This document shows positions 12,369 through 14,763 of a DNA stretch of 64,000 bases, one piece after another. Both the position numbers and the translations under genes were made by a program. The stretch is from the NCBI RefSeq assembly GCF_014191255.1, contig NZ_JACHWH010000001.1, positions 124,001 to 188,000 on the forward strand, in the 5' to 3' direction. The stretch is from Amycolatopsis bartoniae (GTDB lineage Bacteria; Actinomycetota; Actinomycetes; Mycobacteriales; Pseudonocardiaceae). Below the pieces are notes generated by a model. The model saw only the letters and a program-made list of their open reading frames with translations. It had not been told where the DNA came from and did no database searches. Position 1 is the stretch's first letter. Each line of letters begins with the position of its first letter.

Positions 12369-12905
12369 TCACACCGGCAGGACGTCGCGGGCAGCGCCTG
12401 CCGTGTTGGCCACCTGCTTGCGGGCCGCGCCCGCCGTGCTGGACACCTGCTTCGAGGTCTTCGCGGCGGCGCGGCGGGCCCGCCAGCCCAGTGAGGGTTT
12501 GCCCTCCGTGTCCGCGGCGGCGATCAGCAGGCCGCCGACGAGGCCGACGTTCTTCAGGAAGTGGATGATCTGCTCCTGCTTGTCGGCGTCCTTGGCCTCC
12601 CAGAACGCGTGCCCCGCCGCCGTGGTCGGCACGAGGCTCCCGACCAGCGCGAGCGACGACAGGCGCGGGAACTTGCCGAACGCGAGCGCCGTGCCCGCGA
12701 CGATCTTCACGCCCGCGTCGATCTTGACGAGCGTCACCGGGTCGGTGGGCACCTGGTCGGGCAGCTTGTCCTGCTGCTGCCCGACCGTCTTGTCGAGCAG
12801 CGGTTTCGCCACCTCGGCGTGCCCTTCCGCGTGACGCAGGGCGTTGATGCCGCCGTAGATGAAGATGGACGCCAGCATGGGACGGGCCAGTCGACGCAGA
12901 ATCAC
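12369..12905 (-). CDS. DoxX-family membrane protein
   Basis: A 178-residue protein with about four hydrophobic helices. 'RPMLASIFIYGGINALRHAEGHAE' at the N-terminus is the DoxX signature, and the C-terminal 45 residues are Ala/Lys/Arg-rich and probably cytoplasmic, with two imperfect 'STAGAARKQVANTAGAA' repeats. GTG at 12905 is chosen because GGAAGG lies 8 nt upstream; a longer form from 12968 would run into the repeat array. DoxX proteins in actinobacteria take part in redox/thiol homeostasis complexes, but nothing nearby ties this copy to one. Confidence 0.8.
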   Translation of the reverse strand: MILRRLARPMLASIFIYGGINALRHAEGHAEVAKPLLDKTVGQQQDKLPDQVPTDPVTLVKIDAGVKIVAGTALAFGKFPRLSSLALVGSLVPTTAAGHAFWEAKDADKQEQIIHFLKNVGLVGGLLIAAADTEGKPSLGWRARRAAAKTSKQVSSTAGAARKQVANTAGAARDVLPV

Positions 12906-12950
12906 GGTCGTCGCCTTCCTAGGTTGCCTTCTCGATGCGCCGGAAGTACC

Positions 12951-13020
12951 CACTAGCGTCCTCTTCAATGCTCTAGCGCTTTATCGCACACACGCTAGAG
13001 AACGCTAGAGAGCCCTAGCG
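12951..13020. repeat. Phased CTAG-octamer array upstream of the AAA+ ATPase gene
   Basis: Octamers related to CTCTAGCG or its complement CGCTAGAG lie at 12951 (CACTAGCG), 12971 (CTCTAGCG), 12993 (CGCTAGAG), 13003 (CGCTAGAG) and 13013 (CCCTAGCG). Start-to-start steps are 20, 22, 10 and 10 bp, so the copies fall on nearly the same DNA face. A further CTAG is at 13061, and a perfect 12-bp palindrome GATACCGGTATC is at 13028-13039. CTAG is otherwise rare in DNA of this composition. Two more octamers lie after the gene at 14301-14320. Confidence 0.75.
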
Positions 13021-13086
13021 ACACGCCGATACCGGTATCTCGGCAAATATCAGGTCAGTCCTAGAAAGCCCGATAGCGTCGTAGGG

Positions 13087-14283
13087 ATGGATCCCATCCG
13101 CAACCCCTTCGCGCCGGGGGCCGGGCAGCGGCCGCCCGAGCTGGCCGGCCGGGAACGCGAGCTGACCGCCTTCGAGGTGGTGCTGCAGCGCGTCGCGCGG
13201 GGGCGGCCCGAGCGGAGCCTGATCCTCACCGGCCTGCGGGGTGTCGGGAAGACCGTGTTGCTGGGCGAGCTGCGTTCCATGGCGGTCAAGCACGGCTGGG
13301 GCGCGGGCAAGATCGAGGCCCGGCCGGACGCCGAACTGCGGCGCCCGCTGTCGGCCGCGCTGCACCGCGCGATCCGCGACCTCGCGGTGCGCCACCGCGC
13401 GCCGGACCGCGTCGACCAGGTGCTGGCGGTACTCAAGGCGTTCGCGCTCAAGGCCAGCAAGCCCGACGCGAAGCTGCGTGACCGCTGGCAGCCGGGCATC
13501 GATGTGCCCGCCGCACAGGGCCGGGCGGACTCCGGCGACATCGAGATCGACCTGGTCGAGTTGTTCACCGACGTCGCCGAGCTGGCCGCGGACGTCGGCA
13601 CCGGCGCGGTGATCCTGATCGACGAGATGCAGGACCTCAAGGCGGCCGACGTGTCGGCACTGTGCGCGGCGTGCCACGAGCTTTCGCAGTCCGGCGCGCC
13701 CCTCGTAGTGGTCGGCGCCGGGCTGCCGCACGTGCCCGCGGTGCTGTCGGCGTCGAAGTCGTATTCCGAGCGGCTGTTCCGCTACGCCCGCATCGACCGG
13801 CTCGACCGGGACGACGCCGACCGCGCGGTGATGGCTCCCATCGAACGCGAGGAAGCCGGGATCGAGCCAGAGGCGCTGGATGCCCTGTTCGACGCGTCCG
13901 GCGGCTACCCGTACTTCATTCAGGCGTACGCGAAGGCGGCGTGGGACGCCGCGCCCGCGGACCCGATCACGGTGAAGGACGTGCAGGTCGCCGCCCCCGA
14001 GGCCGAGCAGGAGCTGGCCGTCGGGTTCTTCGGCTCCCGCTACGAGCGCGCGACTCCCGCCGAGCGCGAGTACCTGCTGGCCATGGCGGAGCTGACGCAG
14101 GGCCGCGACGAGGGCGCGGGCACCTCGGACATCGCCGTCTACCTGGGCCGCAAGCCGTCTTCGCTGTCGCCGGCGCGGGACAGCCTGATGAAGAAGGGCC
14201 TGGTCTACTCCGCCGAGCGCGGGCTGATCGCCTTCACCGTGCCGCACTTCGGGCACTACCTGCTCAGCCGCAACGAGGATTGA
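13087..14283 (+). CDS. AAA+ ATPase with C-terminal winged helix (Orc1/Cdc6-like)
   Basis: A 398-residue protein: Walker A 'LTGLRGVGKTVLLGEL' at about 47-62, Walker B 'AVILIDEMQDL' near 174-184, a sensor-like 'VVVGAGLPHVP' segment, and a C-terminal region ('EYLLAMAELTQGRD...AVYLGRKPSSLSPARDSLMKKGLVY') that looks like a winged helix-turn-helix. This is the AAA_16/Orc1-Cdc6-like layout of DNA-binding ATPases of unknown role. TAGCGT at 13074-13079 ends 7 nt before the ATG, so it is probably leaderless. It is flanked on both sides by CGCTAGAG-type octamers, suggesting it or a partner binds them. Confidence 0.8.
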   Translation: MDPIRNPFAPGAGQRPPELAGRERELTAFEVVLQRVARGRPERSLILTGLRGVGKTVLLGELRSMAVKHGWGAGKIEARPDAELRRPLSAALHRAIRDLAVRHRAPDRVDQVLAVLKAFALKASKPDAKLRDRWQPGIDVPAAQGRADSGDIEIDLVELFTDVAELAADVGTGAVILIDEMQDLKAADVSALCAACHELSQSGAPLVVVGAGLPHVPAVLSASKSYSERLFRYARIDRLDRDDADRAVMAPIEREEAGIEPEALDALFDASGGYPYFIQAYAKAAWDAAPADPITVKDVQVAAPEAEQELAVGFFGSRYERATPAEREYLLAMAELTQGRDEGAGTSDIAVYLGRKPSSLSPARDSLMKKGLVYSAERGLIAFTVPHFGHYLLSRNED

Positions 14284-14300
14284 TCGCATCCTCTAAGGGT

Positions 14301-14320
14301 TTCTAGCGTTTCGCCTAGAG
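14301..14320. repeat. Two CTAG octamers downstream of the AAA+ ATPase gene
   Basis: TTCTAGCG (14301-14308) and GCCTAGAG (14313-14320) face each other as an imperfect inverted pair, 18 bp after the ATPase stop. They match the array upstream of the same gene. Confidence 0.65.
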
Positions 14321-14392
14321 ATCGACATCGTCCGCGATATGCGCCTTTCGCCGATGAATCATCGGCAAGTGCGCCACATCACCGGACGATCG

Positions 14393-14422
14393 TTGGCGAG
14401 CTTGTGAAAAAAGGTGCATACT
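14393..14422 (+). promoter_or_regulatory. Promoter of the 49-residue basic protein gene
   Basis: TTGGCG (14393-14398), an 18-bp spacer and CATACT (14417-14422). The leader of about 35 nt includes GAGGGGAT before the ATG. Confidence 0.5.
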
Positions 14423-14463
14423 AGAAGCACAACCACCGGACATCTGAGGGGATGCGAAAACCC

Positions 14464-14613
14464 ATGAGCAACATCGCCGCCAAGCTTCGTGCCCGCCGCG
14501 CGCAGGCCCGGACCCGTCGCGCGGTGAACCGGGCGATCGAGACCGCGGCCAGCCCGACCGTGCGCCAGGAGCTCGTCGCCATCGCGCAGGCGCACCAGGT
14601 GCACATGCGCTGA
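14464..14613 (+). CDS. Small basic protein, 49 residues
   Basis: ATG at 14464 is preceded by GAGGGGAT and a plausible promoter, and the frame closes with TGA at 14611-14613. The product begins MSNIAAKLRARRAQ and is Arg/Ala-rich in its first 25 residues ('RARRAQARTRRAVNRAIE'), then becomes a neutral amphipathic helix. A clear terminator follows, so this is a complete single-gene unit. Function is unknown; the basic helix could bind nucleic acid or membranes. Codon third positions are strongly G/C, as in real genes of the window. Confidence 0.7.
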   Translation: MSNIAAKLRARRAQARTRRAVNRAIETAASPTVRQELVAIAQAHQVHMR

Positions 14614-14679
14614 AGTGATCCAGACCACATAATGGTCTCGGTGTAACGCCGAAGGGAAACCCGGCGATACCCCTTATGA

Positions 14680-14726
14680 CCCCGTGATGCTGGCGGACCC
14701 CCGACCTGGCAGCATCACGGGGTTTT
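14680..14726 (+). terminator. Rho-independent terminator
   Basis: A 13-bp perfect stem (14680-14692 with 14710-14722) followed by TTTT at 14723-14726. It ends the 49-residue protein transcript. Confidence 0.85.
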
Positions 14727-14763
14727 CCATTGCCCGGAACCCCGTTGACGGCCTCGCTACTCT

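Follow-up and report, generated by a model that had tools for sequence, protein, structure and literature searches.

A symmetric CTAG operator with a 10-bp step accompanies an origin-proximal AAA+ ATPase gene and may serve its autoregulation

Partition loci of the parS/parC kind have repeated sites beside an NTPase gene, and in partition operons autoregulation comes as a by-product. The locus described here surrounds an AAA+ ATPase gene in a 64-kb stretch of DNA (the window). It resembles the partition loci in that its sites are repeated beside an NTPase gene, lie close to the origin and presumably serve self-regulation, but it differs from them in that one polypeptide holds both the ATPase and the presumed DNA-binding domain and the sites are nearly confined to the gene. 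With autoregulated DNA-binding proteins that have multi-site operators it shares a symmetric operator, conserved with the gene and lying over the −10 box. Unlike the usual operators of that kind, its presumed reader is an AAA+/STAND-type ATPase, its half-sites follow one another every 10 bp outward from a dyad, and almost no other targets are present in its own genome. The archaeal ORC2 and Cdc6/Orc1 proteins with their origin boxes differ from the locus, which has no strongly AT-rich region and lies on a chromosome with a bacterial dnaA; other folds score higher against the ATPase, and its score in the Orc1/Cdc6 family TIGR02928 is 18.3 bits against a cut-off of 181.3. The nearest folds are PABY2304 (2qen) and SSO1545 (2fna), yet these are only 18 and 12% identical to the ATPase, and we know of no cognate DNA array for either. 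BrxC and BrxD of BREX systems are ORC/Cdc6-clade ATPases, BrxC with a winged helix after the ATPase, as described in PMC12839542, and on that description they belong to the same broad AAA+ clade as the ATPase studied here. In contrast to BREX, no further gene is common to all 98 neighbourhoods compared, and the ATPase had no match in PADLOC, on which ground a defence system was set aside. No publication on the octamers or on the pairing of ATPase and sites was recognised in the open literature, as far as searched. The locus is real and conserved and probably of the self-regulating DNA-binding kind, with the ATPase as its likely reader and an unusual operator grammar. The array occurs mostly at a single genomic location; through it the ATPase probably controls its gene and perhaps also organises the surroundings of the origin.

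The ATPase gene (13087..14283, + strand) is present in a single copy in the host genome and encodes 398 amino acids from an ATG start. The protein scored 86 bits in AAA_16 (PF13191; gathering cut-off 32.6) and 21.1 bits in ATPase_2 (PF01637), under the gathering cut-off of 33.2; its match to TIGR02928 is limited to the N-terminal residues 16–60. An AlphaFold2 model (pLDDT 88.8) predicts an AAA+–lid–winged helix fold, with helix 357–370 in the recognition position and strands at 373–377 and 380–383, and several winged-helix residues are invariant among 64 homologues. PABY2304 and SSO1545, the top two solved structures by Z, are archaeal ATPases other than Orc1, which we take to be ATPase_2 (PF01637) structures; archaeal ORC2 and Cdc6/Orc1 are also near and rank below these two among the structures listed. 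The arrangement predicted by the model is thus found both in archaeal Orc and in the solved archaeal members of ATPase_2 (2qen, 2fna). It bears out the AAA+ ATPase with a winged helix that the first-pass annotation had proposed. The same annotation had called the protein Orc1/Cdc6-like, a description that stands in so far as archaeal ORC2 and Cdc6/Orc1 are among the near folds and falls at the family cut-off, which is far from being reached.

Sixty-one genomes, including that of the host, were compared. An ATPase match at E ≤ 0.001 was found in 52, of which 48 were counted as having true orthologues (47 complete and one, in G029, partial), the other four matches being distant or partial. In a class sample of 118 genomes, an orthologue of at least 60% identity was present in 32, in two of them in fragments only. 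A tree of 80 named orthologues requires six changes of family label, the least possible number, and this agreement with the family labels indicates that descent of the ATPase was mainly vertical. A second ATPase subfamily (L085, P0122–P0241) of about 40% identity has a different recognition-helix sequence, and no operator match was found in G058, the genome that carries L085.

The upstream array (12951..13020, unstranded) consists of five CTAG octamers, CACTAGCG at 12951, CTCTAGCG at 12971, CGCTAGAG at 12993 and 13003, and CCCTAGCG at 13013, and the class of its spacings is conserved in relatives. The octamer starts are separated by steps of 20, 22, 10 and 10 bp, and their offsets of 0/20/42/52/62 fit one DNA face at about 10.5 bp per turn, in agreement with the phasing claimed in the first-pass annotation; the CTAG at 13061, in the promoter, is out of this phase and lies 46 bp beyond the upstream octamers. 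A downstream dyad, TTCTAGCG-N4-GCCTAGAG (14291..14322, unstranded; octamers at 14301 and 14313), begins 18 bp past the stop codon, and a 12-bp CTAG pair within 260 bp downstream of the ATPase gene is present in 12 of 30 family loci, that of the host included. The octamer, palindrome and CTAG coordinates and the steps reported by the first-pass annotation were all correct on recount. The 12-bp palindrome GATACCGGTATC (13028–13039), which had been noted after the octamers, was dropped as an element of its own; it overlaps one conserved half-site and is incidental, distant orthologues having no conserved palindrome of this form.

CTAG is rare in this DNA, as had been claimed: the window contains 24 copies against 66 expected from dinucleotide shuffles, and 10 of the 24 fall in 12919–14424. 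The background rate, taken outside the locus, amounts to 0.224 per kb. Six copies lie in 12953–13064, where 0.03 are expected, and the Poisson probability of six CTAG within 120 bp is 5e-13, or 3e-10 when scaled to the window. The 7.76-Mb genome contains the octamer CGCTAGAG 22 times, with three copies in the array, compared with 1088 occurrences of the reversed control word. A second CTAG cluster is present in the host genome at G000:C1:2236170-2236263, where the operator profile described below had no match.

The promoter of the ATPase gene is overlapped by an operator (13036..13080, + strand) that was recognised by column conservation and by a profile match of 30.5 bits (E 2.9e-6 in the whole genome). 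Its half-sites are TCT at 13038–13040, TAT at 13048–13050, AGA at 13063–13065 (within CTAGAA) and ATA at 13073–13075, the last of which overlaps the −10 hexamer TAGCGT (13074–13079), seven bases before the ATG. In aligned relatives a −10-like TAC-GT is found at a constant distance from the promoter site, which suggests that the ATPase transcript is leaderless; the leaderless start put forward in the first-pass annotation is thus supported by comparison of sequences. The distance from the beginning of CTAGA to the start codon is 24–28 bp in 80 of the 106 non-redundant upstream regions and 45–47 bp in six more; the remaining 20 have no CTAGA in the 60 bp that precede the start codon (L085, L086 and L087 were excluded from the 127 upstream regions). 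Further upstream, GACAC (13020..13024, + strand), which corresponds to the WhiA motif, forms the start of an element GACACGCC (13020–13027); 79 of the 106 non-redundant orthologues have GACACG no farther than 110 bp upstream.

The spacing of the sites is quantised. Among CTAG pairs at most 40 bp apart in 62 non-redundant loci, 108 of 117 were spaced by 10, 12, 20, 22 or 32 bp, whereas random placement put a mean of 13.7% of pairs at such spacings, with a maximum of 36% over 2000 draws. Alignment on the promoter site showed conserved T-M-T at −23 and −13 and A-K-A at +2 and +12, with symmetry about −4.5. Strict dyads (TCTAG-N8-CTAGA) were collected from all loci examined, giving 108 non-redundant cases. 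The A-K-A at 7–9 bp from the axis is demanded by the search itself; it recurs at 17–19 bp (A 83%, K 91%, A 69%) and, partially, at 27–28 bp (A 73%, K 84%). The symmetric recurrence of these triplets every 10 bp indicates that the element consists of a dyad and of like-oriented half-sites repeated outward from it at intervals of 10 bp. In 9 of 123 dyads at least 12 of the 17 outer arm positions pair; one of these dyads is in G026 and the others are in L148, L243, L163, L098, L078, L097, L103 and L153.

Across 80 named loci, CTAG density was 11.5 per kb in the 200 bp upstream of the ATPase gene and 5.5 per kb in the 150 bp downstream, compared with 0.15 per kb inside the gene and 0.33 per kb more than 1 kb away. 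Upstream CTAG was present in 75 of the 80 loci, and downstream CTAG (150 bp) in 31, with none in 49. Conservation of the octamers upstream of orthologues, on which the first-pass annotation had made its proposal depend, was checked: CTAG lies within 200 bp upstream in all loci of five families, namely Pseudonocardiaceae (42/42), Micromonosporaceae (14/14), Jiangellaceae (3/3), Geodermatophilaceae (6/6) and Nocardiaceae (8/8). In Thermomonosporaceae, it was found at this distance in one of six loci and within 260 bp downstream in all six, and the upstream regions mostly have degenerate TCTACG-like half-sites (by eye). CTAG was absent within 260 bp downstream in Micromonosporaceae (0/14) and Geodermatophilaceae (0/6), so arrays flanking the gene on both sides are not general. 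The ATPase gene is the only one common to all 98 neighbourhoods (L085 and L086 left out); the next commonest family occurs in 28.

A profile of 46 columns was built from 38 promoter operators, five Nocardiaceae rows of the 43 (L139, L145, L148, L149 and L167) being left out because of their differing layout, and matches on both strands at one place were counted once. At E ≤ 1, it matched 47 of 48 genomes with an orthologue, the exception being G046, and none of the 13 without (up to 102 candidates scored per genome). The concern that the octamers might be equally dense without the ATPase was therefore not borne out. At the same threshold in the class sample (up to 52 candidates scored), matches were found in 28 of 32 genomes with an orthologue of at least 60% identity (G066, G079, G100 and G137 had none) and in 5 of 86 others, namely G092, in which a 50% homologue has a site upstream, and four genomes at E 0.18–0.76. 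Some of the 28 matches are weak (E up to 0.84) yet adjacent to the ATPase gene. In the host genome, where the best 150 of 391 candidates were scored, only three places were found at E ≤ 10: the promoter operator (13036–13080), 12972–13005 in the upstream array (E 0.34) and the downstream dyad (14291–14322, E 1.7). A genome-wide regulon was rejected, since the profile found no second locus among these scored candidates. Because the profile was trained on sites upstream of the ATPase gene, the presence half of the co-occurrence is partly circular; what is informative is that sites are absent where the orthologue is, and that few stand elsewhere, both among the candidates scored. The 61 genomes contain 54 strict dyads; 35 are at most 5 kb from the ATPase gene and the other 19 are not. 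Perfect dyads without the ATPase occur in G053, inside an apparent coding sequence, and in G059, and three similar dyads far from the ATPase in G030 look like copies of one repeat.

Our inference, which we regard as the probable explanation, is that the array is bound by the ATPase, which thereby represses the promoter of its gene. The C-terminal winged helix would recognise the half-site (consensus CGCTAGA, core TAKA), and two oppositely oriented protomers or short oligomers would nucleate at the dyad TCTAGS-N6-SCTAGA, 12 bp from CTAG to CTAG. Further protomers could then join outward every 10 bp, one helical turn each, on two to three half-sites per arm. As the outer right half-site overlaps the −10 box, a filled operator should block RNA polymerase, which would result in negative autoregulation of the presumably leaderless transcript. 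Arrays flanking the gene on both sides, as in the window, may raise the local concentration or join by looping, and the ATP state probably sets oligomerisation. Against this explanation, winged helices in the class of ATPase concerned can serve protein contacts. A self-regulated nucleoprotein switch was among the options listed in the first-pass annotation and is the best supported of them: the sites stand in phase, accompany the ATPase across the class and form a symmetric, conserved operator positioned over the gene's own promoter. The ATPase, which is widely conserved in Actinobacteria, carries only the database names 'ATP-binding protein' or 'AAA family ATPase', and now has a precise candidate DNA target whose symmetry and step are defined. 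Should it be the binder, nucleotide-controlled DNA assembly of a bacterial STAND/ORC-clade protein would be open to direct study.

It is also conceivable, although unlikely, that a transcription factor encoded elsewhere binds the array, with the ATPase gene as its main or only target and the ATPase itself having no role in DNA recognition. The element has the shape of a transcription-factor operator over a promoter, and some genomes have similar sites at a DoxX-like gene, gyrA, rpsF-ssb and, weakly, dnaK (labels by eye). Were an unlinked regulator to disappear along with the ATPase, the same pattern of co-occurrence would result. However, the sites of such a factor would have to be missing in all 13 genomes without the orthologue, the factor would have essentially one target locus in its own genome, and the ATPase has, in the model, a winged helix of its own.

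In the host genome, dnaA lies 98 kb away from the locus, and the ATPase gene is within 300 kb of dnaA in all 31 genomes that have both on one contig. A short contig can show short distances only, but 15 of the 31 are on contigs longer than 4 Mb; the other 16 complete orthologues are outside this count. In 30 of the 31 the ATPase gene is 55–298 kb upstream of dnaA in dnaA's orientation, in one it is 8 kb away on the other side, and in 26 the two genes are co-oriented. In genomes with the ATPase, the profile has 14 secondary matches, over 5 kb distant from the gene or on other contigs; nine of them lie no farther than 120 kb from the ATPase, where chance predicts 5% (P 4e-9), but four are on other contigs and most are weak (E 9e-6 to 0.92). 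The names given to their neighbours (rpsF, ssb, gyrA, gyrB, dnaK, LigD-like, sigma factor) were assigned by eye from translations. One secondary site lies upstream of rpsF-ssb in G037, and a weak one precedes dnaK in G022. In one ATPase-bearing genus (L246, L247, L248 and L249), operator-like dyads are found in the gyrB-gyrA spacer upstream of gyrA. They are clear in G121 and G136, consist of one full CTAG and a degenerate partner in G103 and are degenerate in G150, and the profile itself reported only those of G121 and G103; no such dyad was found in G085 and G161, sister-genus genomes without the ATPase. A dyad in G026 (L199 4786–4825) has 18-bp perfectly inverted arms around 4 bp and lies between two convergent genes, one read by eye as coding for an ECF-type sigma factor and the other for a LigD-polymerase-like protein, an arrangement that makes promoter control unlikely there. 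Pure autoregulation does not need these sites away from the ATPase gene.

Such sites and the position near dnaA speak for an origin-domain nucleoprotein or a partition-like module, in which ATPase-bound arrays would organise, mark or move the origin region and autoregulation would be a by-product. If so, the locus would be a chromosome-organising element beside ParABS. We consider this reading rather improbable: a place near the origin can be inherited, the array occupies a single locus in its own genome among the candidates scored, 13 of the 61 genomes lack the orthologue, and the secondary matches have the weakness and scatter given above. Equally doubtful is a more specific proposal, that of a one-gene nucleoprotein centre near oriC, in which a STAND/ORC-type AAA+ ATPase would polymerise from dyads, one protomer per 10 bp, on the arrays beside its gene and also, in certain lineages, on satellite sites of the origin region (gyrB-gyrA, rpsF-ssb). 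Such a centre would couple the ATP state, or the topology of the DNA, to how the origin domain is built, would use autorepression as its gauge, and would be a bacterial counterpart of the archaeal Orc-gene/origin-box locus without being an origin.

That the locus is itself an archaeal-type replication origin, or a plasmid-like replicator captured in the chromosome, is very improbable. The ORC2-like fold, the iteron-like sites flanking the gene and the place near the origin are compatible with it, but the array region (12940–13086) has 55% GC and 48% in its lowest 50-bp stretch, in a window of 70%, and is thus not strongly AT-rich; the ATPase is far under the Orc1/Cdc6 cut-off, and the chromosome has its normal dnaA. 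A replication origin was given little weight on the first two of these grounds, and the replication-type or partition module suggested by the first-pass annotation is not supported by the family score or by the two nearest folds. Chance, or RNA-level features such as terminator hairpins or mutational relics of CTAG avoidance, deserves almost no credence, because the few dyads that are long inverted repeats are outweighed by the quantised spacing and the conservation across families, and the upstream copies precede the promoter.

The genes that adjoin the ATPase gene were also compared. In the window, a gene for a DoxX-like small membrane protein (12369..12905, − strand; PF07681, 32.7 bits for the longer ORF, start codon by eye) is divergent from the ATPase gene and shares the upstream array with it. 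By single-linkage BLAST, the DoxX-like gene neighbours the ATPase gene in 16 of 98 loci. In G027 and G032 the two genes are separated and a dyad lies upstream of the DoxX-like gene. It is possible that the ATPase and the DoxX-like protein form a functional pair. In seven Micromonosporaceae loci (L130, L131, L133, L140, L150, L156 and L164) the DoxX-like gene is found closely 3′ of the ATPase gene, while in Amycolatopsis the two are divergent.

Downstream, a gene for a 49-aa basic protein (14464–14613) occurs in 24 of 98 neighbourhoods, and its product had no match in Pfam. The first-pass annotation had listed this gene after the downstream octamers, and it probably does not belong to the unit: in G028 and G034, genomes of the host's family without the ATPase, the gene is kept with no CTAG upstream, and the small protein was rejected as a partner. 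This evidence is weak, as several ATPase-bearing genomes also lack downstream sites. By eye, GCCGATGAATCATCGGC, CACCGGATAATCG and TTGTGAAAAAAGGTGCATACT are strongly conserved upstream of the 49-aa gene. Just downstream of it, Rfam identified an F6 sRNA (RF01791) at 14673–14729 (+ strand; 65 bits, E 3.7e-11). The upstream thiolase resembles fadA2, which adjoins F6 in M. tuberculosis, and the ATPase block would lie between the two here.
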